Source of the DNA: a virus
Reading direction: 5' to 3' (one strand)
DNA: 34,233 bases
IMG/VR virus record: IMGVR_UViG_3300037635_002609
Coordinates: 1 to 34,233 of that record
Under the pieces are notes generated by a model. That model was not told the DNA's origin, ran no database searches, and was given only the letters and a program-made list of their open reading frames with translations. Position numbers and translations under genes: made by a program. Below, one piece after another: positions 30-33,135 of this stretch; within the stretch, counting starts at the first letter, position 1, and each line of letters begins with the position of its first letter.

Positions 30-574
30 TCTTTTATTTTAATTGTTATATCATGTGGTGCATATTCATTACCACCAAAATATGGGTATAAATAGTATCT
101 ACGCAATAAACCCCAGTTACCTTCAGGTCTTCTACGTACAAGCGTGGTATCATTATCTATTACTATTACATAATAAAATGTTTTTATATCAATAGTAGCG
201 TTGTAAATTACATCTGTATCTATAGTTCTTATTGTTGCAGCGCTATGTCTACCCTCTTCATGCCTTAACCAACAAAGCTCTAGCTCGTTGTTTAAATATC
301 TCCAACCAAGACGTATAGAATACTTTTGATGTCTTAAGCCAAAATCACTCACACCATATATTTTATTCACATCATGTTGGTTTTCTGCTATTTCAGTTTC
401 ATATATAGCAGACTCGTCTAGTATAAATTGAAAACTTATTCTTGAGTTATCTGGATGGTTTATAAAACTACCTGAGCTATGTTCACCAGCTGGTATTGTA
501 TAAACTCTAAAGCCAAGATCGTCAACTTCTTTAGTACAAGATAACAGTAAAAGAAGTATCAGGAGTTTTTTCAT
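26..574 (-). CDS. Phage-encoded lipoprotein, Bacteroidota-like, beta-rich (182 aa)
   Basis: The N-terminus is a lipoprotein signal peptide: MKK, a run of leucines and isoleucine, then LLSC with the lipidated cysteine at residue 13. After the cysteine come T, K, E, V, D, D. A lysine followed by acidic residues just after the cysteine recalls the surface-export signals of Bacteroidota lipoproteins. The mature part is mostly beta-strand pattern and ends in YPYFGG...APHDI near residues 164-177. From memory, that ending is typical of lipoproteins in Bacteroidota genomes, which suggests acquisition from a host. The start overlaps the stop of the giant gene (TAATG), so the two are coupled. Plausible jobs are receptor masking or superinfection exclusion on the infected cell; an outer spanin is less likely because the protein is long and not helical. 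The function is inferred; the lipoprotein nature is clear. Confidence 0.75.
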   Translation of the reverse strand: MKKLLILLLLLSCTKEVDDLGFRVYTIPAGEHSSGSFINHPDNSRISFQFILDESAIYETEIAENQHDVNKIYGVSDFGLRHQKYSIRLGWRYLNNELELCWLRHEEGRHSAATIRTIDTDVIYNATIDIKTFYYVIVIDNDTTLVRRRPEGNWGLLRRYYLYPYFGGNEYAPHDITIKIKE

Positions 575-3500
575 TAAAACTTTTTCTTTTTAAACGTTTG
601 TTTTTTAAATGGTTTTCTTAATGATTTTCTTGATTTAATAGCGTTTTTATATTCTTCTATAGCTTCGTTTTGTATACCTAAGTTATACTGACTCCAACCT
701 AAAAACATTAAAGCTCTTTGCCAAGCTTCATTTTGACTATTTAAAGCTTGACCTAAATTTTTAGTTTTGTTATACAGCCTATTAGCTGGTACATTAGTTA
801 AAGCTTCAATATAATTAGTTGCGGCTGACCATTGAGGATTGTCACTGTCAAGCAGTTCCATTTCACTTATTATATTTTCATTATAATTTAATGTTTTTTC
901 TGCGTTAACTATTTTTCTTAACTTAATACCAAGTGGTGGTGAGAAGTTTGCTAATTCCATTATCACAGAGCTTTCATCAAAGTTATAGTCTTTGTCTCTT
1001 TCTCTTGAAAATTTAATAGCCATATTTTTTAAAGTTGACACAGCAGCACCTAAAACACCAGCACCTCGTAATACAGAATCAATACTACCGCTGAGCATAC
1101 GTTCTTGTTTGCTTAATAATTTTTCATCTTCTGGATCATCATCAAACATCATAAAAAACAATGCTGACTGTAAACCATAGAATATTAAGTTTTGTACTGC
1201 AAAGTAATATAATATTCTTGAAGAGTTGGATATATCACTTTGTAATAATGTTTTGTTAGGCGGCGTTATTCTTCTATTGTACATATCTAAAAACGCTTTT
1301 TTACCTAACCTATTAAACTGAGATGTTACATTTTGAAAAGCTAATATCCATTTACCAGCATCAGAGGCTTGTTGTTGTGAAACCATATCAGGTCTTGCTG
1401 ACTGTTGTGTTGCTTCTGATATTTCTTGAAAATCTGCAAATGCTCTTCTTTCAGCTTCAGCTTGACCTAAGCCTTCTTTTTTATAAGTGCTTACTCTGTT
1501 TCTGTAAAACAAAGCACCACCTGTTGCTATCGCAATGTTATCACCAATTTGCGTAGGCTTAAAACCTAGTTGCAATAATTTTCTTATTAAACTTCTTATA
1601 GGATATTCAGATTCGCTAATTTCAGAAGCAAGCTCAGCACCGTTAACATCTGTTCTAATACCACCACGTCTTTGCTTCATAAAGTCAGAGTTAAATAGCA
1701 TAGACCAATCATTCCAGTATTGTTTTTGATTTGCAAAAACTTTAGCCGCTTGAAATATATTGTTATCAGCATAGTTTATAAAATTAACTATAGACATTTG
1801 CTGTAAAACTAACGATCTTATATTAAAGAACATGACAGTACCTACAGCAGCATTTACAAAATTAGTTAATGCGTTTACTATTGCATTTTGCCCTTTAGGT
1901 CTATTCTTACCTAATTTTATTCTATAAAGCATGTCTTCAAGAGCGTTTCTAACACCTTTACCGTAAGCAGCTTCTATTTTATTTAAATTTTCTTGTGAAA
2001 ATATTATGTCAGCATTTTGTTGAAACTCTGCAAAAAACTCTGCTCTACCAACTCTATCAGTAGCGTCTATTAAATCCATTTTTATATTAAACGCTTCCCA
2101 GCCAACTGCTGGTGCAACATAATCAGATCGTTTAGATATTACATTTAAAGCCTCGGCATAGCTTAACAACCTAGCGTCGTTTTTAACTATGTTAGCTAGA
2201 TTAGCTTGATCAGTTTCACTTATACCAGGTATAGCGTGACCATGCTTGTCCCAAAGGTATACTCTTATAGCATCTTGATACGTGAAATCACCATCAGGCG
2301 TTTTCTTTGTAAACATATCTTTAACATCTTTGTATTGTTTGTTTAAAGATTTGTAATCACTAGCTATTGACTGTCTAGCAGTGTCATATTCTCTAAACGC
2401 TCTGTTAAGAGGTTTTATTAAAGCTTTTTCAAAAAAGTCTCTATGTGCATCACCTTTTTTTCCTTTACCTATAAAGTTATACAACAACCCTACAAGATCT
2501 TCATGTGATGGCGGTATAAAGTATCTAAACTTGCCTTTGCTAGACCCACGCTTTCTAGCTTTAATTTCACTAAATCTTTTTCTTGACTCTATACTAGTGA
2601 CATCTTCTATTATATCGTTAAACTGATCACTCATGCCTTCGCTAAAACTAACTTTGGCTTGTTGTATTTTTGATTTAACATCAAATTGATCTAGCATGTT
2701 TTTAACAGCTTGTACATTTTGTAACGCATCATCTGCAAAATAAAAGTCGTTGTAACCTTGAGCTGCTTTATCTGCTACCCACAGCGCTTTTGCCTCTGCA
2801 GTAGAGTTACCTAGACCAGTTATATTTTCTAAAGGTATATTTAAGCCATTAGCTTTTAAAAAGTCAAATATAGCTTGTGCTGATACAGCTGGCCTAGCAG
2901 TTAGTACAAACATATTTTGTGGACCAAACTTACTTTGCAGCTTTAGCGCTTTTTTAAATAAAGGTGCAACTTTACCTTTAACAACTTTATTAAACTCTGA
3001 AAAATCAAATACGTAACCTTGGTCTTGCAAGTCTTGATATGTACTGGCGTACTGCTCAGCGTTTAATGTACCTGTGTCTCCTTGTGGCGTTGTGTATTTA
3101 ACTAGTGATTCACTTGTTGCTAATGTGTCATCAAAGTCTAGTATAGTTATTCCTTTTGGTTTATTTACTGTTCTAGAGTTTATAGCAGCCTTACTCATAG
3201 AAATATTTTTCTTCGCATGAACAGATTTATTTACGGCTGTTTTAAATTGCTGTACATTTTTTTTGTTTCTTATATTAAAGCCAGATGTTTTTTCTATATT
3301 ATTAGTATTAAAAAAAGCTTCAGGATTAAGCCTAAAACCATAATACTTGTTTCCAGCCGCGTCGTAACTACTTTCAGATAAAAGCCTAAACTTAACGCCA
3401 TGACCACCTTTTACAGAAGTCACCCCTAGTTCTTGAGCTGTATTTAACGGATCTTTACCTAAATAATATAGACCTTTGCCTTGGCCTTCACCTATAAATA

Positions 3501-6500
3501 ACGCATAAAAATTACCTTTTTTATTGTAAAGATATGTGGATACAGAACCATCATCTTCAATTGTAATATTAGATTTCTTTTTTACTTTTCTTATTGACTC
3601 GTGCCAAATAGGATCTTTAACACCAGGTATTTGTTGAAAAATTATTTTGTTAATCATTTTACCAAAAGTAGAAGAGTCTGGATTATTATCTAGACTTTTA
3701 TATGGTGATATTTTTGGTAATTCTATTTTATTTAAATCTATACCTTTTGGATAACCGAATTCTTCAACAAGTAAATTTTCAAACTCTTTAATTACTTTAA
3801 ACACAGGATTTGCACCTTTTGTTACAATATCTTTAATAAACTGAGGTAAAGTAGGATCACTAAAAGTAAAATTACCTTTACTATCATAAGAACTAATAGT
3901 TATTTTACCAGCATTAACAGTTCCGCTAGCAGCAAACTTTATTTCTAAAGCAACTTCTTGTCCATTATCTAAAACAAATACTATGTCTGCATTTTGGAAC
4001 TTACCACCTTTAAATGTAAAAAATGGTTTTATATTAACTTTCTTTTCACTTAATTGATGGCCAGGCGCTAAAAATCCAGCTTCTTCAAATAATTCGTAAA
4101 CAACTCTTTCACCTACATCACCAAGATTTTTTTCTCCTTTTAATTTCACTATTGATCCAAACACTTTTTTTAACGCTGTGTTTAACATACTATCTTTTTC
4201 TAAACCGCCTTTATTGTGAAGTTGTTTAATAGGATCATATATAGCAGATAATATAGGTACTCCGTTATATTTTAGTTTATTTTCCAACGCTAAAAACTGA
4301 TCAATACTATTTTGAGCAAGAGTTAATAATTCATTAAACTGCTCTATAGTCTGCATACCAGTTATACCTAAACTTAATGATATACCAGGGTTAACATCAA
4401 GAACATCAGCTATTACTTGCACGTCATTTTCAAGCTGTTCAATACCTGTTATTTCTTGAACACCTCTCATTCTTTCAACAATATTTAACTCTTTGTTTAA
4501 GATGTTAATTGTAGCATCAAAACCAACTTTTTCAACTACAGCTTCTGCTAAGCCGTCTTTTCTAGTGCCAAAAGTAGATTTACCTACAGTATATCCTAAT
4601 ACCTCTTGCATGTTTGTACCTCTAAAAAACGCCATTATTTGCTCGTTGCTAGGTGTTTTTAGCTTAGTATTTAAGTTTGGCCCACTAGCAGGTTTAACAT
4701 CTTTTCTTATTAAACCTTGCTCTTGTAATTTTCTAACTTCTTTTACAGATGTTATTCTTTTAGAATCTACAAATATTTTTTTACCTTTTGGTACTCTTCT
4801 TTCTATTTGCACCCACCTATCAGCGTTTAATGTTCTATGTAGTGTAGGTATGTATTTTCTTAAAAACTTATTGTAATCTTGCTCTCTACCAAATATATCT
4901 TGTATTTCTTTTTTAAGCTCAACAATAAGAGCATCTTTTAATTGTGTTCTATATTTTTTTGATCTTATATCTGGAAGTTTTGTACCGTATGTTTTTCTAA
5001 CAGCTTGTTTTACCTTTTCAATTACTTCGTCAGTTAAGTTAAGATCTTTTTTAATTTGAGACTCTAGCTGCTCTGGAGTAAGTTCCTGCTCTTGTTCTTG
5101 AACATCATCAGCAATATCAAAACTTCTTCTACCAGTCTCTGATGGTTGATCTATTGTAGTTGTTTTTGGCTTAGTAGCTAGTTCTTTTGCAGCCTCCATT
5201 TTACCAAATCTAATATCAGAAAATATTCTTTCAGCAAAAGTTACTGGAGCATCACTTTTCTTTTTTCTTTTAGCGCCTGGATCATAATTTATAATCCTGT
5301 CATTAATTTCATCTAAAACTTTTGACCTAGCGTCAGGCAATGCTTTTTGCATTACTTGGTTGTATATAAGACCACCTGGCGCTAAAGCTTTACCTATTTC
5401 TTTGTTAAGTCTTGGGTCAGATAAAAAAGCTAAATAATCTTCTTTTGTTTTAACATTTTCAGGTATAAGATCGTTTATTTGATCTACAACACCTTTTGAA
5501 AAACTAGTGCTAGAAACTTTAACATCTTCTTCTGGTGGCAATTGTAATTTAACACCACCTTCTGTTATTTGTTTTTGAAAATTTCTTATGTAAGATAATA
5601 CGTCTTCAGCAGTTTTAAGCTTTATAAAAGGAAATATTTTTTTACCAAAAGGCATGGCTCTTAAAGCAGAGTTAAACAACGATCTAAAATAATACATAGT
5701 ATTGTCGTCCTCTTTTGTTATAACACCAGCGTTTATAAGCTCACCAAATATAGTTTTTACTTCTCTTAAATCAAGCTTACCGTTTTTAGTGTATTGATCT
5801 AGTCTTTGTTTTGCTGTTTTGTATTCTTCTGAATTTTGATCTAGTTGATCAATACTTTTAACAAGCTCTTGCATTGCAGCTTTATGAGTTTCAACAACTT
5901 CACGATTTTTAACAACACCTTGTTTTATATCATACATGTGTTGTGCTTCGTGAACCGCTGAATAAGCGTGCATAGCTTTTTCATATATATTTTTAGAATT
6001 TTCAATACTTACAGCTATCGCATTTTTAAAAATTAAAATTTCATTTGTTGACTGTACAAAACTAGCGTTACCTACTCTAAATCCTTTAATATAATCGTTG
6101 TAATCATCAATTGTTATACTTCCTTTTGACAAAAGATCATTAAGCTTAACCTGCATGTCTTCAAAAGTAATACCTTCAAATACTTTTACATCATTAGTAC
6201 CTTTTAATAAGTTTATAAAATGCTGGGCTTGTGAAAAATAAAATAAATTTTCTGCATCAACATTTTCTTTTTGTACTATTTCTTTATATCTTTTTTCTCT
6301 TTCTTCAGTTGGTCTATTTACTAACTCTTCATTTTTAGATCTTAGATTTATATTGTCTTGTTGTATTTTTTTAAGCTCTTCTTTAGTTCTACTATCAAGA
6401 CCAATACCTTGATTAACTGCTAAGTTTTGTATTTTTTGATTATTATCTCTAATTAATCTATTGTTTTCTAATACTTGAAATATATTTTCATTGCTCATTT

Positions 6501-8622
6501 CAGCTATATTAGTAAAAAGCTCAGCATCTTTTATATTAACCTCTTCAAGAAGCTCGTTTAATTTACCTTCAGCTCCATTTTTTTGAAAATAACTTTTAGC
6601 GTTTTTTATTCTTTCATTTAACTCAAAAAATTGATTAGCATATTTTCTATTTGCTTTTACCTGTGAAAAAGTATTGAACTCATCTCTTAATGTTGCTATA
6701 GCTGTTTGGCCTATAGAAGGACCTTGTATTGCAAGAGTTGAAAACAAAACGTTCATATTAAAATTAGCGTCTATACCTTCAACAAAACTTTTGTTTTCTT
6801 TTAAAATCACATAGTCAGCTACGTTGTGCATAAACTGAGTACCAAACTCTTCAACATACTCTACACCAATATTAAATCCATAGTTTTTACCGGTACGTAA
6901 AATATTTTTAAATTCTTTTTTATTAATAGGCAAGCTATTAAGTTTTTCAAAAATTCTTAAAGTACCAAGAGTTTCTGCAACAGTAGCTATACTACCGTAA
7001 AACAAAGGATTTAAAGTCTTTTGCAACCCAGTTATGTCAAGAGCTCTTTCGTGCGACTCAAGCTCTACAAGTATACGTTTCTTTTCTTGCTCGTCTGTAA
7101 TACTGCTTAATTGTTCTCTTAATAAAGGTATTTGCGCTTTAGCGTTTCTTTGTCTTATTTCTAGCTCACTTAAATGCCCACCAGCTTCTACAGTAAAAAA
7201 AGCACTTTGCACGGCTTTTTTTGCAAGTTTTTCTGCGGTTTTACCTAACGCTGCTCTACCAACACCATAATAACTTAAAGCAGTTCCTATACTAAATATA
7301 TTTTCTGCTAAAATACTTGAAGCAACATCTCCTAAATTACTTAAATTCATGTCACTGAAATTAACAGGTAATGGACTTATAGACTGTTTATGATTTTTTA
7401 TTGATTCATTAACACTAATCATATCGCTATAAGACTTTTCAGAAACTAAATTTAGCTTTCTACCTACAGCGCCTGTAAACAAAGATATATCATTAAAAGC
7501 AACGTCTAAGCTCATTTCAGCAATGCTAGACCATTCATATTCTTTACCTAAAGCTTTAATAGCTATATCAGCATCTTCAATTTGTTCAGAAGCTTTTTTA
7601 AAATTTTTATGGCGTATTGACAGATTGCCATGTGCATTGGTTAAATACTCAACATCATGTTTATCATAAAAGCCTTTAACAAGATCAGCTCTTTGTTGAT
7701 ATAAATTATTTACTTTATCTATGTTTTCTTGGTTTTTAGAATACAAAACCATAGGCACGTCTTTATCATTAGTTTGAAAACCTAACTTATCAAGCTCGCT
7801 ATTTATATTGTCTAAGCTTTTATCTAAAACAACTCTATCTTTTTCGTATGCGTCGTATTTTGTTATGTATTCTTTTGACTGATTACCTAAGCTTTCTTGC
7901 TCTTTAATTATATAATCTTGTAATACTTTTTGAGCGTTAACAGCTTTAGATTTTATATCTCTTGCTAAAAATTTTTTAGCAGTTACCGTTGGATCAGTTA
8001 AATCTAATTTTTCAACAAAAGAAGGCATAAGCTGTTCAGAAGCTTCTAAACTAACTTGATCTTTTTTTATCGCTTCTTTATATAAATTAATATATTTTTC
8101 GTTACCATTAAAAAGCTCAATAAAACCATATCTAACATTATCATAAACTTCTTTTTGCTCTTCTTTGCTTAAGTCTTCAGTGTTTATATAAAGCTCTGCT
8201 TGCCTTTGTTTAAATTCATTTAGTGCAGTTTGTTTCTCTGTATCGTTTACAAAGCTTAGTATATCAAAATCTTTTTTATCTTGAGACAAATATGCTTCGT
8301 GTTTTCCTGGCTTTTGAGAATCAAAAAAAGTTTTTATATCTTCTTCCCTGTCTGTTTTAAACTGTGGTAAAGGTATAAATTTATCACCTGCAAAGCTAGG
8401 TAGTTGTTGTTCAAGGTTGTAATTATCAGGTCTTTCTCTAAATTCAGTAAAATTTAAAAACGTTTTATCACCAACAACAGCACCTTGTTCTAAGCTAAAA
8501 TACTTTTTAGACAAAAAATCTTTAAAATTATTATCGTTTTCAGTAACATTATTTATAACGTTGAATAACTGAAAATTATAATCTTTTGTAGAATTAAGTT
8601 TTATTATATTGTCTTCCGGCAT
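574..8622 (-). CDS. Giant polyvalent internal virion (ejection/cargo) protein, 2682 aa
   Basis: This is by far the longest gene. The first ~720 residues are mainly helical with several Gly/Ala-rich hydrophobic patches, as in ejected internal virion proteins. Residues 891-895 are HEAQH, a zinc-metallopeptidase HExxH motif in a hydrophobic helix. Around 1510-1575 a PD-(D/E)XK nuclease-like core has D1546 and the E1560-I-K1562 pair. Residues ~1822-1990 are a HAD phosphatase: motif I D1829-x-D1831-x-T1833, motif II T1908 in VLTARP, motif IV D1964-D1965. Residues ~2010-2500 resemble the C-terminal domain of large polyvalent phage proteins (LPD38-like, from memory), with a strongly hydrophobic segment near 2471-2491. 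A motif of the form SFS-x-G-x-x-DQ-x-ND-x-I occurs twice, near 1041 and 1993. It follows the gp14-like and 471-residue genes, which fits an ejection module. I infer that it is packaged in the capsid and delivered into the host, where the enzymatic domains act. No catalytic activity has been tested. Confidence 0.8.
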   Translation of the reverse strand: MPEDNIIKLNSTKDYNFQLFNVINNVTENDNNFKDFLSKKYFSLEQGAVVGDKTFLNFTEFRERPDNYNLEQQLPSFAGDKFIPLPQFKTDREEDIKTFFDSQKPGKHEAYLSQDKKDFDILSFVNDTEKQTALNEFKQRQAELYINTEDLSKEEQKEVYDNVRYGFIELFNGNEKYINLYKEAIKKDQVSLEASEQLMPSFVEKLDLTDPTVTAKKFLARDIKSKAVNAQKVLQDYIIKEQESLGNQSKEYITKYDAYEKDRVVLDKSLDNINSELDKLGFQTNDKDVPMVLYSKNQENIDKVNNLYQQRADLVKGFYDKHDVEYLTNAHGNLSIRHKNFKKASEQIEDADIAIKALGKEYEWSSIAEMSLDVAFNDISLFTGAVGRKLNLVSEKSYSDMISVNESIKNHKQSISPLPVNFSDMNLSNLGDVASSILAENIFSIGTALSYYGVGRAALGKTAEKLAKKAVQSAFFTVEAGGHLSELEIRQRNAKAQIPLLREQLSSITDEQEKKRILVELESHERALDITGLQKTLNPLFYGSIATVAETLGTLRIFEKLNSLPINKKEFKNILRTGKNYGFNIGVEYVEEFGTQFMHNVADYVILKENKSFVEGIDANFNMNVLFSTLAIQGPSIGQTAIATLRDEFNTFSQVKANRKYANQFFELNERIKNAKSYFQKNGAEGKLNELLEEVNIKDAELFTNIAEMSNENIFQVLENNRLIRDNNQKIQNLAVNQGIGLDSRTKEELKKIQQDNINLRSKNEELVNRPTEEREKRYKEIVQKENVDAENLFYFSQAQHFINLLKGTNDVKVFEGITFEDMQVKLNDLLSKGSITIDDYNDYIKGFRVGNASFVQSTNEILIFKNAIAVSIENSKNIYEKAMHAYSAVHEAQHMYDIKQGVVKNREVVETHKAAMQELVKSIDQLDQNSEEYKTAKQRLDQYTKNGKLDLREVKTIFGELINAGVITKEDDNTMYYFRSLFNSALRAMPFGKKIFPFIKLKTAEDVLSYIRNFQKQITEGGVKLQLPPEEDVKVSSTSFSKGVVDQINDLIPENVKTKEDYLAFLSDPRLNKEIGKALAPGGLIYNQVMQKALPDARSKVLDEINDRIINYDPGAKRKKKSDAPVTFAERIFSDIRFGKMEAAKELATKPKTTTIDQPSETGRRSFDIADDVQEQEQELTPEQLESQIKKDLNLTDEVIEKVKQAVRKTYGTKLPDIRSKKYRTQLKDALIVELKKEIQDIFGREQDYNKFLRKYIPTLHRTLNADRWVQIERRVPKGKKIFVDSKRITSVKEVRKLQEQGLIRKDVKPASGPNLNTKLKTPSNEQIMAFFRGTNMQEVLGYTVGKSTFGTRKDGLAEAVVEKVGFDATINILNKELNIVERMRGVQEITGIEQLENDVQVIADVLDVNPGISLSLGITGMQTIEQFNELLTLAQNSIDQFLALENKLKYNGVPILSAIYDPIKQLHNKGGLEKDSMLNTALKKVFGSIVKLKGEKNLGDVGERVVYELFEEAGFLAPGHQLSEKKVNIKPFFTFKGGKFQNADIVFVLDNGQEVALEIKFAASGTVNAGKITISSYDSKGNFTFSDPTLPQFIKDIVTKGANPVFKVIKEFENLLVEEFGYPKGIDLNKIELPKISPYKSLDNNPDSSTFGKMINKIIFQQIPGVKDPIWHESIRKVKKKSNITIEDDGSVSTYLYNKKGNFYALFIGEGQGKGLYYLGKDPLNTAQELGVTSVKGGHGVKFRLLSESSYDAAGNKYYGFRLNPEAFFNTNNIEKTSGFNIRNKKNVQQFKTAVNKSVHAKKNISMSKAAINSRTVNKPKGITILDFDDTLATSESLVKYTTPQGDTGTLNAEQYASTYQDLQDQGYVFDFSEFNKVVKGKVAPLFKKALKLQSKFGPQNMFVLTARPAVSAQAIFDFLKANGLNIPLENITGLGNSTAEAKALWVADKAAQGYNDFYFADDALQNVQAVKNMLDQFDVKSKIQQAKVSFSEGMSDQFNDIIEDVTSIESRKRFSEIKARKRGSSKGKFRYFIPPSHEDLVGLLYNFIGKGKKGDAHRDFFEKALIKPLNRAFREYDTARQSIASDYKSLNKQYKDVKDMFTKKTPDGDFTYQDAIRVYLWDKHGHAIPGISETDQANLANIVKNDARLLSYAEALNVISKRSDYVAPAVGWEAFNIKMDLIDATDRVGRAEFFAEFQQNADIIFSQENLNKIEAAYGKGVRNALEDMLYRIKLGKNRPKGQNAIVNALTNFVNAAVGTVMFFNIRSLVLQQMSIVNFINYADNNIFQAAKVFANQKQYWNDWSMLFNSDFMKQRRGGIRTDVNGAELASEISESEYPIRSLIRKLLQLGFKPTQIGDNIAIATGGALFYRNRVSTYKKEGLGQAEAERRAFADFQEISEATQQSARPDMVSQQQASDAGKWILAFQNVTSQFNRLGKKAFLDMYNRRITPPNKTLLQSDISNSSRILYYFAVQNLIFYGLQSALFFMMFDDDPEDEKLLSKQERMLSGSIDSVLRGAGVLGAAVSTLKNMAIKFSRERDKDYNFDESSVIMELANFSPPLGIKLRKIVNAEKTLNYNENIISEMELLDSDNPQWSAATNYIEALTNVPANRLYNKTKNLGQALNSQNEAWQRALMFLGWSQYNLGIQNEAIEEYKNAIKSRKSLRKPFKKQTFKKKKF

Positions 8623-8635
8623 ATTGCTATTTTTA

Positions 8636-10051
8636 TTATCTAGACAAGTTCATTAGAATTTTTTCAAAAAAGTTTGGTTGTTCAACACTTATGCTAGCAC
8701 TTTGCTTCTGGCTTTCAGTGTTTTTCATCAAACTTGGATCCATTGTAAGATTTGCAAATTCTTCCATGTTTAACATAAAACCAGAACCTCTGTTAAAAGC
8801 GTCAGTTTCGCTACCACCATTTAATAATCTTTTTACTTGCTCTAAACTCAAGCCTGTAACTGGTTTTCCTTGTTTACCTGTTACTGAAATATCTGAATAT
8901 GACCATGTTTTATTTTGTTTGTCAAAAGAAAATTTACGATCTTCGCCAAAAGGCGCCATAAACTCGTTACCACTTTTTAAGTTGTTTAACAACTCGTTGA
9001 ACTGTGGTAATGCTATTGGTGTACTAGGCGCTATGTTAACATAGTTGTTTTTAGTAACAAACTGCTTGTAGCTAACTACTGTTCTATCGCCAATATCTGG
9101 AAGTTGGCTATCATCTGTATTAAAGACAATGTTTTCTTGTTCAAGAGTATTTGCGTAGTAATTTACAGCAAACTGAGCGCTTTTATCACTATCATAATCT
9201 GGATGCCCAGGTTGTACTAAAGCGTCTACAATTTCGTTTTTTTCTTCAGGAGATTTATCTGCTAATTCAGGAAATAACCCATCAAACACTACTTCTTTTC
9301 TTAATTCATCTGCTACAGAACCACTTGTGTTTTCCATTAAGTCTGGAGTTGTTAATAAATTTGCAACTCTTATATTTCTATCTGTAGATATAAAATCGTA
9401 CAAGCTAGATTTAATATCGTTTTTATTAAAACTAGGTGACTGTCTTTTTTGTAACACTTTAAAGACTTCTGCTTTTTCTACATCACTCATGTTTGGCACA
9501 ACACCAAAAAAGTTTTTCACATCACCAGGTCTAACTTCTAACACTTCATTATTATTAGATGCTCCAGAATATAAAAAATACATACCAGTGCCGTCATCTT
9601 GAAACCCTATAGCCTCGTCATTTACGTAAGATTTAGCATTTTTTAAAGACTGTGGATTTGTAGCGTCTAGATTTATGTTTTGTTCGTTAGAAAATAAATC
9701 TATTAAAGGACTATGGTGAACTGCAAATTCTTTTTGAAAGTCACCATATTTTTGAGCTTTATACTTAGCCTCATCTAAACTTTCTTCAGTAACGCTACTA
9801 CTAAAATTTTTAATTTTACCATGAAAATGACCAGCAGCTTTTTCACCACCGTTATGTATACCAATACTTTCGGTCATTTTTTTAATGTCTTTTAACAACT
9901 CTTTGTTTACTTCTCTTTTAGCTGTAAAAAGACTCATCATGTTATTACCTTTCTGTATTTCTATTTGAGCTTGGCCCGCATAGATTTTAGTCATGTCTAA
10001 CGTTTTTTCTAAAGTACCAGCCGTTGCTATTAGTGATTTGTCTGCTCTCAT
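8636..10051 (-). CDS. Probable internal virion/ejection protein of unknown fold (471 aa)
   Basis: I do not recognise the family. The protein has no signal peptide or membrane segment and alternates helical stretches with Asn/Asp-rich loops. A segment around residues 160-180 (EVLEVRPGDVKNFFG) looks like a small folded domain, and the last ~60 residues are Ser/Gln-rich before a hydrophobic C-terminal helix. It lies 10 bp downstream of the gp14-like ejection gene and 13 bp upstream of the giant polyvalent gene. By position it corresponds to the middle member of a three-gene ejection module (compare T7 gp14-gp15-gp16). That role is inferred from context alone. The start ATG follows an A/T leader with no Shine-Dalgarno sequence. 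Confidence 0.6.
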   Translation of the reverse strand: MRADKSLIATAGTLEKTLDMTKIYAGQAQIEIQKGNNMMSLFTAKREVNKELLKDIKKMTESIGIHNGGEKAAGHFHGKIKNFSSSVTEESLDEAKYKAQKYGDFQKEFAVHHSPLIDLFSNEQNINLDATNPQSLKNAKSYVNDEAIGFQDDGTGMYFLYSGASNNNEVLEVRPGDVKNFFGVVPNMSDVEKAEVFKVLQKRQSPSFNKNDIKSSLYDFISTDRNIRVANLLTTPDLMENTSGSVADELRKEVVFDGLFPELADKSPEEKNEIVDALVQPGHPDYDSDKSAQFAVNYYANTLEQENIVFNTDDSQLPDIGDRTVVSYKQFVTKNNYVNIAPSTPIALPQFNELLNNLKSGNEFMAPFGEDRKFSFDKQNKTWSYSDISVTGKQGKPVTGLSLEQVKRLLNGGSETDAFNRGSGFMLNMEEFANLTMDPSLMKNTESQKQSASISVEQPNFFEKILMNLSR

Positions 10052-10061
10052 ATTATAAGTT

Positions 10062-10739
10062 TTAAGGATTTAGAAAATCTTGCACACTATCAGTTTGAAG
10101 TGCTGTCATATAGTTTTGACTAGCTTGTGACCTTAGTTGATTAGCATATAAATTAGCTGACGCTTGGTTTGCACCTGCCTGTCCTAAGTTACCAGCGGCT
10201 TGGCCAGTAAGTGCTTGCTGTATGCCTAATAAAGTAGATTGTCTACTAGCGTTCATGCTTTGAAGCATTGCCTCACCTTTTCTCTCAGCAAGTTGAACTG
10301 ATAAATTACCTTTAGCAGCGGCTAATCTATTTGCTCCTTCTTGTCTTGCTATGTCAGCAGATATTTTTTGCGTTCTAAGCATGTTTTGATTTGCTAATGC
10401 TTGAGCTAAACTAGCGATACCACTAGAGCCAGCAGCGTCTCTTAGTGAAGAAAGTAAATTAACTTGAGATTGCTCAGCTCTTCTTGATGCAAACTCTGCT
10501 TGCTGTGTATTTACAGTAAGATCTTCAAATGGATTTTGTACGTTTTCATAAGGATTTATAAAAACTTGCTGTCTATATTTATCTTTTTCAATTTGCAAAA
10601 GTCTTTTTTGCTCATCAAACATTTTTTTATTTTCTTCGTATTGCTCTCTAGACATACGCTCCATAGACCTAGCTGACCTTCTTTGTGATCTTGAGCTAAT
10701 GAATGCCCCTGCAATAGTTGCTACCGCTAACCAACTCAT
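10062..10739 (-). CDS. Internal virion protein, T7 gp14-like ejection protein (225 aa)
   Basis: Residues ~2-16 form a single hydrophobic helix (WLAVATIAGAFISS). A very basic and charged helix follows (about 17-60), then a long Ala/Gln/Asn-rich helical region (78-210) with heptad-like spacing and no cysteine. One N-terminal membrane helix followed by an Ala/Gln-rich coiled region is the usual look of gp14-type ejection proteins, which leave the capsid first and form a pore in the outer membrane. T7 gp14 is 196 residues, a similar size. The gene sits at the head of the probable ejection module. The family assignment rests on architecture and position, not on a recognised signature. Confidence 0.65.
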   Translation of the reverse strand: MSWLAVATIAGAFISSRSQRRSARSMERMSREQYEENKKMFDEQKRLLQIEKDKYRQQVFINPYENVQNPFEDLTVNTQQAEFASRRAEQSQVNLLSSLRDAAGSSGIASLAQALANQNMLRTQKISADIARQEGANRLAAAKGNLSVQLAERKGEAMLQSMNASRQSTLLGIQQALTGQAAGNLGQAGANQASANLYANQLRSQASQNYMTALQTDSVQDFLNP

Positions 10740-30294: not shown

Positions 30295-33135
30295 TTACTT
30301 GTTTTTCAGTGCTTTTACTTCTTCTGATAGCTCTTGTATTGCTTTAACTAACATAGGTATTAAGTTTGCTTGTGCAATCATGTATTGATCAGGATCGTTA
30401 GTGTTTACTATACCAGTGTAATCAATGTTTTCGTTATCTAGCACTTCTTTTACTTCTTGAGCAATAAAACCAGAAGCTTGTTTACCTTTATCGTTATTTG
30501 TGTGCCTATGATTCCACTTGAATTTTCTAGGTTTTAATTTGTTTATAAACTCAGTTCCTAATTCTAAATCTTCAATATCTGACTTATCTCTTTTGTCAGA
30601 TACAAAAGTCCAAGCACTTGCAGATCCTTGAAATCTAGCAGTTACAGAGCCGTTATAAATATTTACTTCGTTATCAACACCCACAGCAGAAGCTGCAGCG
30701 TCATAACCTATTATAATATTGTTATCACCAGTTGTAAGAGCGTCACCACAAAGACCACCTATAATAGTATTTTTAATACCTTCAGAAATGTTTTTACCAG
30801 CTTCAAAACCCATAGCAGTATTAAATGGATTTGTAGTACAGTTTTGCATCATTAACGCTCTATAACCCACAGCAGTAGAACCTCCATAAACATCTTCAGT
30901 AGTTAGCGCTTCATGTCCAATAGCAACATTTCTAACACCAGTAGTTAAAGCATCTCCGGCTAAACTACCTATAACAACACTTTCAATAGCTGTTGTCATT
31001 CCCTCACCGGCTTTGTAACCTACAGCAGTATTATTACCTTCACCGCCAGCGTTCAAAGTAGCTAAAGAGTTGAAACCAACAGCTACGTTTCTACCGTGTT
31101 GATCTTCTGAACCTAAAGCAGCATAACCTATAGCTGTATTTCCAACACCTGAGTTCAAAGCGTCACCGGCCAAAGCACCAATTATTGTGTTTTGTGTTCC
31201 TGTTGATACGCTTAAACCAGCATGAAAACCAACGGCAACATTGTAAGTATTACTACCCGTGTTCATGACACCATTTCCTAAAGCAGATGTTCCAAAAGCT
31301 GTATTTCTAGCCGAGGTTGTTGCAGCCGATAAAGATCCATAACCTACAGCTGTGTTTTCTGAAGAATCTGTTAATGCATCACCAGCCGTGCATCCTATAA
31401 TAGTGTTGCTAGTACCAGTTGTAATTTCTTTACCAGCGTGGAGACCAACCGCTGTGTTGTTACCATGACCAGATACATTTTGCTTTTGTAATGCTCCTAC
31501 GCCAACAGCTGTGTTTTGTCCAAAAACCGTTTGTGCACTTAATGCCAAATAACCAACAGCAACGTTATTAATTCCTGACGTTAAAGCATCTCCAGCTTGA
31601 GAACCAATTAATGTATTAGTAGTACCTGTTGTTATAGAGTTTCCAGCAAGATGACCTATGGCAGTGTTATGACCATCTACACCACCAGTAAATGTAAGTG
31701 TTGCCCCAGATACAGCGCCACCAGTTGCACTAGCTGACATTTCAAATTCTGTGTTACTAGTTATACTAGCAACTGTAGTTCCAGAAGGTATAGTGTTAGC
31801 AGTACTACTTGTTACAACTTGCCCAACTACAATACTAGTGTTAGACGTGTGAGTAACAGTTGTGCCTCCATTATAAGCACCACCACCAACCGTATGCTGT
31901 GGTTGTTGAACCTCTAAAGCTCCAGATCCTATAGCAACTGATTTTGAACCAGCGTTTGTAGCACTTAGAGCGTTATATCCTAAAGCTATGTTATGATTAC
32001 CAAGAGTAATTCCGTCTCCGGATAATGAGCCAACTAAAGTGTTTTTAACACCTGTTGTCATTGATTTACCAGCTTCAAATCCTACAGCTACGTTGTAAGC
32101 ATCGACGCCTGCGTTTTGTGTTTTTAAAGCTTGATACCCAACTGCTACATTTTTACCATGAGTTTCTTGTGTACCTAAAGCGTTATAACCAACAGCAACA
32201 TTTGCAATAGAAGTTGTCATTGCATCACCGGCTAAACTACCAACTAGAGTGTTTAATCTACCTGTTGTTACGTTTAATCCTGAGTTATAACCTACAGCCG
32301 TGTTGTATGTGTAAGCAGTAACTCCATTATCTAAATTAAGTAAAGAATTAGCTCCAATTGCAACGTTACCTGATTCATTAGTATTGGCACTTGTAAGCGC
32401 GTTATACCCTAAAGCAACGTTTTCAGATCCAGTAGTTAAAGCATCTCCGGCTAAACTACCTATTAGAGTGTTTTGTACACCTGACTCTAGTAAATGACCA
32501 GAGTTATAACCTAAACCTACATTATAACCATTGCCATTAAAATTCAAAGAATACAAAGAACCTTCACCAATAGCTGTGTTTCTTGCGCCTGTATCTTCGG
32601 TAAGTAAAGCTTGATGTCCTACTGCTGTGTTTTGTCCCCCTGTTGTTATTCCCGATCCAGCTTGATAACCTACAGCAGTATTAAAATCTCCATCTGTAAT
32701 AGCATCCATTGCCGCAAGACCATAAGCAGTGTTGTAAGTTGCAGTATTTTGTGTTGCAGAAACATTATGCGTGTATATAGAGCCAGTGTCTCCAGAATAA
32801 AAAGGTATGCCGTTAAAAGAAGTTCCATCAACCGTACCTGCAAAAGTTGCGTTTTGAGATGTATCTAATGTAAGTGCTAAGGTGCTGTTAGTTAAAAACG
32901 CTAAATTATTATTTGTAGTAGTTCTTACGCTATTTTGGTCTACTCTTAATGACTGTGATGAATGATTTAAAACTAAAGCAGCATCTCCAGAGGAAGGAGT
33001 TACTGTTATGCTATTACCATTTACAACTAAGCCGTTTGCTGTTATTGCATCTATATAAGCTGATGCCCAGTATTTACTTGCTGTTCCTAAACCTCCTTCA
33101 CTGTCCGCTCTTGGGACTATATTTGGTGTTGCCAT
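30295..33135 (-). CDS. Tail fibre/spike with YadA-like repeats and S74 chaperone (946 aa)
   Basis: Residues 1-125 form an N-terminal attachment and shaft region with an MATPNIVPRADSEGGLGT start. Residues ~130-828 are head-type repeats of the trimeric adhesin kind (NTAVGYxA, NVAVGF). They are grouped in eight ~80-100-residue super-repeats, each marked by a variant of SLAGDALTTG. Residues ~410-488 are an insertion that breaks the repeat array. Residues 846-946 are a peptidase S74 intramolecular chaperone: SDKRDKSDI at the cleavage point, then FINKLKPRKFKW, GFIAQEV and a C-terminal coiled coil. S74 domains trimerise the fibre and cut themselves off between Ser and Asp (here S846-D847). The protein is the likely primary receptor-binding fibre. 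Confidence 0.9.
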   Translation of the reverse strand: MATPNIVPRADSEGGLGTASKYWASAYIDAITANGLVVNGNSITVTPSSGDAALVLNHSSQSLRVDQNSVRTTTNNNLAFLTNSTLALTLDTSQNATFAGTVDGTSFNGIPFYSGDTGSIYTHNVSATQNTATYNTAYGLAAMDAITDGDFNTAVGYQAGSGITTGGQNTAVGHQALLTEDTGARNTAIGEGSLYSLNFNGNGYNVGLGYNSGHLLESGVQNTLIGSLAGDALTTGSENVALGYNALTSANTNESGNVAIGANSLLNLDNGVTAYTYNTAVGYNSGLNVTTGRLNTLVGSLAGDAMTTSIANVAVGYNALGTQETHGKNVAVGYQALKTQNAGVDAYNVAVGFEAGKSMTTGVKNTLVGSLSGDGITLGNHNIALGYNALSATNAGSKSVAIGSGALEVQQPQHTVGGGAYNGGTTVTHTSNTSIVVGQVVTSSTANTIPSGTTVASITSNTEFEMSASATGGAVSGATLTFTGGVDGHNTAIGHLAGNSITTGTTNTLIGSQAGDALTSGINNVAVGYLALSAQTVFGQNTAVGVGALQKQNVSGHGNNTAVGLHAGKEITTGTSNTIIGCTAGDALTDSSENTAVGYGSLSAATTSARNTAFGTSALGNGVMNTGSNTYNVAVGFHAGLSVSTGTQNTIIGALAGDALNSGVGNTAIGYAALGSEDQHGRNVAVGFNSLATLNAGGEGNNTAVGYKAGEGMTTAIESVVIGSLAGDALTTGVRNVAIGHEALTTEDVYGGSTAVGYRALMMQNCTTNPFNTAMGFEAGKNISEGIKNTIIGGLCGDALTTGDNNIIIGYDAAASAVGVDNEVNIYNGSVTARFQGSASAWTFVSDKRDKSDIEDLELGTEFINKLKPRKFKWNHRHTNNDKGKQASGFIAQEVKEVLDNENIDYTGIVNTNDPDQYMIAQANLIPMLVKAIQELSEEVKALKNK

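Follow-up and report, generated by a model that had tools for sequence, protein, structure and literature searches.

The question raised by the stretch of DNA analysed here, IMG/VR virus record IMGVR_UViG_3300037635_002609 (positions 1 to 34,233; the window, in what follows, is this whole stretch of 34,233 nucleotides), is what its one giant gene encodes: an intact open reading frame (ORF; P0001) on the minus strand, with an ATG start and coding for 2682 amino acids (aa). An initial annotation had noticed in the product a peptidase motif, a nuclease-like core and a phosphatase motif set, and had proposed an injected effector that may also process itself. The residues that it had named (HEAQH 891-895, D1546, E1560, K1562, D1829, D1831, T1908, D1964 and D1965) all lie where it had placed them, and their conservation in aligned relatives shows that the motifs go beyond chance: the gene encodes one protein with three enzyme-like domains, all with intact catalytic residues. 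Three further residues had been overlooked, namely E1505 (the fourth nuclease residue), E954 (the likely third zinc ligand) and K1945 (the HAD lysine). We regard it as probable that the protein belongs to the interior of a podovirus particle and functions as an ejected polyvalent protein, its gene being placed like those of the N4 virion RNA polymerase and of phi40:1 gp101; of the interpretation given in the initial annotation the domains are upheld, and the place in the virion and the self-processing in part only.

574..8622, minus strand: giant polyvalent-type protein, 2682 aa (ORF; relatives hold the same place in gene order)

As a single sequence, the giant protein gave no significant match in Pfam, PHROGs, NCBIfam or the PDB sequences, and among 50,697 records of cultured and deposited phages tblastn returned a single weak match. 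Because these single-protein searches came back empty, the claim had to be tested through relatives. The full-length protein as query retrieved 8 loci from IMG/VR; the HAD domain together with the C-terminal block retrieved at least 599 candidate stretches, among them at least 536 true relatives, 80 of which were retained. The resulting set comprises 86 distinct giant ORFs, the complete ones of about 2100-3600 aa, with 82 counting as long. Across these relatives the N-terminal parts diverge widely, while the HAD domain and the C-terminal block remain similar. Judged by the profile-match criterion of the initial annotation, the single protein would have failed; it is rescued only by family alignments together with fold comparison.

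The first of the three domains is a zincin-like metallopeptidase, located as follows:

5593..6261, minus strand: zincin-like metallopeptidase domain, about aa 788-1010 (13-relative alignment; predicted secondary-structure order)
5938..5952, minus strand: HEAQH motif, aa 891-895 (motif and conservation)

An HExxH motif is seen N-terminal of the HAD domain in 78 of the 82 long relatives, where composition predicts 0.73, and the other four have HDxxH instead. Among the 13 sequences nearest to the version found in the window, H891, E892, H895 and E954 are invariant and D898 is nearly so: the HExxH motif and the downstream glutamate ligand of zincin-like metallopeptidases are thus both present. The polyvalent peptidase subtype described by Iyer, Burroughs, Anand, de Souza and Aravind (2017, PMC5512222) has an Asp at the third residue past HEXXH, followed by a Glu in the conserved helix that comes next; with E954 and the near-invariant D898, the window peptidase fits this description. 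A profile of these sequences was compared with ten giant or neighbouring virion proteins; the top match, at the HExxH of the N4 virion RNA polymerase, is weak (E 7e-4, computed for that ten-protein set only). The AlphaFold2 model of the domain (mean predicted local distance difference test score, pLDDT, 72) contains the expected succession of helix, strands, HExxH helix and Glu helix; fold searches with this model were filled by its long N-terminal helix, and the VIA matches listed include no zincin row, which is uninformative. Zincin identity is therefore strong at the level of the motif, which bears out the peptidase claim through conservation and, weakly, through the N4 match. Separately, the HDxxH variants constitute an altered peptidase active site (L010 aa 1031, L037 aa 868, L059 aa 945 and L088 aa 868).

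The nuclease-like core is found in the segment immediately N-terminal of the HAD domain, which we call the slot:

3223..4260, minus strand: exchangeable module of the slot, aa 1455-1800, represented in the window by a PD-(D/E)XK nuclease that is extended C-terminally (alignments, tree)
3703..4140, minus strand: PD-(D/E)XK core, about aa 1495-1640, with E1505, D1546, E1560 and K1562 (invariant columns, hhalign, predicted fold)

A PD-(D/E)XK-type module occupies the slot in 29 members (the window protein and 28 relatives), and in 26 of these 28 relatives the nuclease is only 12-20% identical to that of the window. In the 29-sequence alignment E1505, D1546, E1560 and K1562 (window numbering) are the sole invariant columns and make up the E, D, ExK catalytic set; as the D...ExK pattern had helped to select the members, independent confirmation comes from E1505 only. 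An hhalign comparison of the nuclease type of the window with the other 26 gave E 5.5e-6, and scans for further copies of the window's own subtype returned L001 and L003 only. The AlphaFold2 model of the nuclease has a mean pLDDT of 70, with higher values in the core. VIA-align placed HhaI at the top (Z 8.3, 179 aligned residues, root mean square deviation 3.7), followed by Hjc, RecU, SwaI, EcoRV, MspI and HinP1I, and all of the top 14 rows belong to the PD-(D/E)XK superfamily, whose core fold is thereby recovered. The structurally nearest predicted viral proteins in BFVD, both uncharacterized, are A0A218ML07 from an uncultured virus (E 2.8e-11) and A0A6J7X0G9 from an uncultured Caudovirales phage (E 1.6e-9), the latter a standalone protein of 259 aa. 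The predicted structure thus lends fold support to the nuclease claim, and the slot module is supported as a PD-(D/E)XK fold and predicted nuclease. About 50 other members carry a different module in the slot, here termed EH, which is marked by a near-invariant Glu-His (EHAMP, EEHTDP, YEHMIP; for example L006 aa 1261, L011 and L016); that this module is HNH-like is only a guess.

The third domain has the support of family profiles:

2653..3165, minus strand: HAD phosphatase-like domain, about aa 1820-1990, with D1829, D1831, T1908, K1945, D1964 and D1965 (invariance in 41 relatives; Pfam)

None of D1829, D1831, T1833, T1908, K1945, D1964 and D1965 varies across 41 sequences, so that HAD motifs I-IV (DxDxT, T/S, K, DD) are complete. 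Pfam DUF2608, a HAD-clan family, matches all 41 members (best E 4.6e-6) and Pfam HAD matches 7 (best E 3.4e-4); the HAD-clan match of the window member itself, at E 0.0027, falls under the curated cut-off, and the phosphatase claim is supported by the profile at the level of the family. In some relatives this domain is interrupted after motif I:

L035:10124-10768, L040:639-1283, L042:9374-10018 and L050:10118-10762: P-loop kinase inserts of AAA_33/zeta-toxin type
L030:9584-10060: ART-PolyVal-like ADP-ribosyltransferase (ART) insert at the same point of the HAD domain (E 0.0013, below cut-off)

The four kinases match Pfam AAA_33 and Zeta_toxin above cut-off. Inteins, considered as an identity for such insertions, were ruled out by the finding of P-loop kinase and ART-like domains. 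Separately, L060:10529-11836 holds an insertion of about 440 aa directly after the HAD domain. The inserts hint at nucleic-acid end chemistry, and one explanation, compatible with the ejected polyvalent protein, would make the HAD domain an enzyme that heals polynucleotide ends against host nucleases at entry, like T4 Pnkp. The kinases within the domain in four relatives agree with this, as do a PHROG polynucleotide kinase match in 1 of 16 scanned proteins, a profile comparison in which PNKP structures scored weakly (E 1.4) and the fusions of polynucleotide kinase and HAD that serve RNA repair in jumbo phages (PMC7824862). However, the inserted kinase matches zeta toxin equally well, and the window protein has no kinase family match and a HAD domain without insert, so that it lacks the T4-type combination of kinase and phosphatase. 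RNA ligase profiles gave a single weak match and nothing above cut-off in 17 records; the second such profile is uninformative because it found no match in control genomes either. Overall we consider end healing possible but lean against it.

The remainder of the protein is a conserved block:

577..2625, minus strand: conserved C-terminal block, aa 2000-2682, with hydrophobic segments 2255-2273 and 2475-2493 and a Lys-rich tail

The initial annotation had called this a polyvalent-type domain, a label that homology does not confirm: the block has no match to polyvalent-associated families in Pfam and is strongly conserved in its own right. When the presence of PD-(D/E)XK is traced on a 52-row tree built from the C-terminal block, at least 11 changes of state are counted, and supported branches force 7 of these. 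Comparison of the window protein with L001 displays the same pattern at close range: identity is mostly 87-100% over aa 1021-1380 and 1801-2682 but 23-68% over the nuclease slot. The HAD domain and C-terminal block are a constant chassis, and the segment from the peptidase to the HAD domain is cargo swapped between phages. On this tree, PD-(D/E)XK and EH modules replace each other at least seven times, which is new here.

Self-processing, as proposed in the initial annotation, finds circumstantial support in a motif restricted to the stretch that follows the peptidase. The motif (V/I)(K/M)(F/Y)S(K/R)S is enriched only there: its core (F/Y)S(K/R) reaches 2.53 per 1000 aa from the peptidase to the HAD domain (202 occurrences in 79.9 thousand residues) but 0.62 per 1000 aa N-terminal of the peptidase (42 in 68.2 thousand). 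Four of five permuted triplets stay flat at 0.5-0.8 on either side; the fifth, (K/R)(F/Y)S, rises from 0.44 to 1.64 because it overlaps the K-F-S core of the motif itself. The strict form x(K/M/R)FS(K/R)(S/T/N) was seen 48 times, against 1.6 in shuffles, and the density of the motif is highest in the 60 residues preceding the HAD domain (13 per 1000 aa). The window protein itself has three sites:

5494..5502, minus strand: linker motif FSK, aa 1041-1043, the first past the peptidase (Ser invariant in 13 relatives)
3190..3198, minus strand: degenerate linker motif MSK, aa 1809-1811, at the border of nuclease slot and HAD domain
2638..2646, minus strand: degenerate linker motif FSE, aa 1993-1995, past the HAD domain

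The sites at 1041 and 1809 lie in or beside low-confidence linkers of the AlphaFold2 models. Since sites are inherited among related members and are not independent, the enrichment is a lead and not proof, and we treat the linker motifs as candidate cleavage sites. A coupling of HDxxH, in which the catalytic Glu is lost, to the loss of motif sites could not be shown; relatives with HDxxH keep some of the sites (n=4, p 0.41).

Two other explanations of the motif have to be weighed. The first is that it marks a DNA recombination joint left by module exchange and has no function in the protein; its location at module borders, where exchange happens, would fit. The Ser codons, however, are drawn from both families, TCN (117) and AGY (79), in background proportions: DNA identity has not been kept, selection acts on the protein rather than the DNA, and the recombination joint, highly improbable to us, was rejected on these grounds. 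The second is that the zincin is an effector directed at a host protein and that (F/Y)S(K/R) is a binding or linker element instead of a cleavage site. Iyer et al. leave a role of the zincin on host proteins open (PMC5512222), and the degenerate sites of the window protein and the retention of sites alongside HDxxH point the same way; restriction of the motif to the C-terminal side of the peptidase, with its greatest density right before the HAD domain, argues against it, and we regard this explanation as unlikely. Somewhat better placed, if still tentative, is a packaged self-cleaving polyprotein: the zincin of a constant chassis would cut at (V/I)(K/M)(F/Y)S(K/R)S linkers, all of them downstream of it, and so set free in the host an interchangeable cargo of enzymes, be they nuclease or EH module, phosphatase, kinase or ART.

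The assignment to the virion comes from gene order. The giant gene lies in the morphogenesis operon and is preceded by two genes on the same strand:

8636..10051, minus strand: 471-aa protein directly upstream of the giant gene, positional counterpart of phi40:1 gp100
10062..10739, minus strand: 225-aa protein, positional counterpart of phi40:1 gp99

Neither neighbour has a family match, and their earlier description as ejection genes gains nothing beyond this: they are known by position alone. Terminase, portal and capsid match those of Flavobacterium phage elemo, Cellulophaga phage phi38:1, Maribacter phage Panino and the Manatee Spring phage MW202828, and by these three proteins the phage groups with flavobacterial podoviruses. 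Four matches of the HAD domain and C-terminal block were found in genome collections, all in contigs binned as Bacteroidota, and the host of this uncultured marine phage is probably a member of that phylum. The order of genes agrees with that of Cellulophaga phage phi40:1. There, records based on tandem mass spectrometry (MS/MS) list gp97-gp101 as virion proteins, with gp100 corresponding in position to the 471-aa protein and gp101 to the giant one. Virion membership is thus favoured by gene order and not by sequence similarity to gp101.

The same position also accommodates a polyprotein of the packaging stage, in which the zincin would cut at head assembly and the nuclease and phosphatase would serve assembly or DNA packaging instead of acting on the host. 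The morphogenesis operon is where such a gene would be located, and processing ahead of packaging was proposed for phage P1 DdrB (PMC5512222); the same source, however, has the N4 virion RNA polymerase, the nearest positional analogue, packaged unprocessed. Furthermore, the occupant of this place in phi40:1, gp101 (1691 aa), has a record that lists it as a virion protein, though silent on whether it is full length, and a large terminase is already present, so that an extra packaging nuclease is not obviously needed. We think a packaging-stage role quite unlikely, slightly more so than an effector zincin.

Several results weigh against the ejected, self-processing polyvalent protein. The profile of the C-terminal block, run on the giants of elemo, phi38:1, phi46:3, Panino and MW202828, detected no similarity (the near-identical phi38:1 copy being used for the comparison with gp101), and because these giants share no sequence similarity the evidence for the virion is positional. 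Besides the empty single-protein searches, Foldseek of the nuclease model against the PDB was weak, with E-values above 0.1, and Foldseek with the peptidase model was filled by matches to its long N-terminal helix. Some relatives carry HDxxH, two of the three linker motifs in the window are degenerate, and a role of the HAD domain in RNA repair is unsupported given that ligase profiles brought up no clear RNA ligase in relatives.

As in the polyvalent proteins of PMC5512222, disparate enzymes are combined in a giant multidomain phage protein, here with signatures of a peptidase, a nuclease and a phosphatase within a single ORF; the peptidase shares with the polyvalent ones its HEXXH, the Glu farther downstream and an Asp at the third residue past the motif, and one relative (L030) has the ART-PolyVal-like insert. 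The points of difference are these: a search of the main text of that paper found neither a HAD phosphatase nor a PD-(D/E)XK nuclease named as a polyvalent domain, Pfam revealed no catalogued LPD domain in the window protein, and a constant HAD and C-terminal chassis is combined with an exchangeable slot. The window protein resembles N4 virion RNA polymerase gp50 and phi40:1 gp101 as a giant protein ending a block of virion genes, and the zincin of N4 gp50 is the best match of the family peptidase profile among the ten proteins tested; unlike gp50 it contains no polymerase that we could find, and to gp101 (phi38:1 copy) it has no detectable sequence similarity. Its nuclease shares the predicted core fold and E-D-ExK set of HhaI, Hjc, RecU, EcoRV and MspI, but unlike these is embedded in a virion-type protein. 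Its phosphatase-like domain has all four HAD motifs, as do Pfam DUF2608, HAD, acid phosphatase B and PNKP, yet it has no close family among known HAD phosphatases, and in relatives it takes up kinase or ART-like inserts past motif I. The trio of peptidase and nuclease with HAD, the exchange slot, the HAD inserts and the linker motif are new here.

For the ejected polyvalent protein, the following course of events can be proposed. The giant protein would be built into the particle, as its position suggests, and would enter the host with or before the DNA, where the PD-(D/E)XK nuclease and HAD phosphatase, present as domains and with activities predicted from them, would be delivered. The zincin would most likely cut at linkers of the (F/Y)S(K/R) type on its own C-terminal side, at the predicted sites, and so free the cargo; zincin autoprocessing of polyvalent proteins was proposed earlier in PMC5512222. 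The nuclease would most likely attack host or competing DNA early in infection, and the HAD domain would most likely strip phosphate from nucleic-acid ends or nucleotides, the weakest step of the scheme.

Some further observations concern other parts of the locus and of its relatives. On the minus strand of the window, 26-574 encodes a 182-aa protein after the giant gene, with an ORF of almost equal length in that place in L001, L003, L006 and L008, and 30295-33135 encodes a 946-aa tail-spike-like protein with NTAVGY-type repeats and matches to phage tail spike PHROGs. In MW202828, L095:741-12320 encodes a giant protein of 3859 aa with two HEFGH motifs. Promoter and terminator scans remained at chance level.

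The cutting of polyvalent proteins by their own zincin was predicted in 2017, with no recognition sequence named in the available sections of that work (PMC5512222). The family of the window protein is common in marine data. It supplies a specific site motif that can be put to the test, and with it a natural experiment: depending on the member, one and the same chassis bears a PD-(D/E)XK nuclease, the EH module, a kinase or an insert resembling an ADP-ribosyltransferase. Swapped enzymes on a shared layout in hundreds of related phages suggest a set of tools that is injected along with the viral DNA. If true, this would explain how several early weapons are delivered from one gene, and how they come to be swapped.

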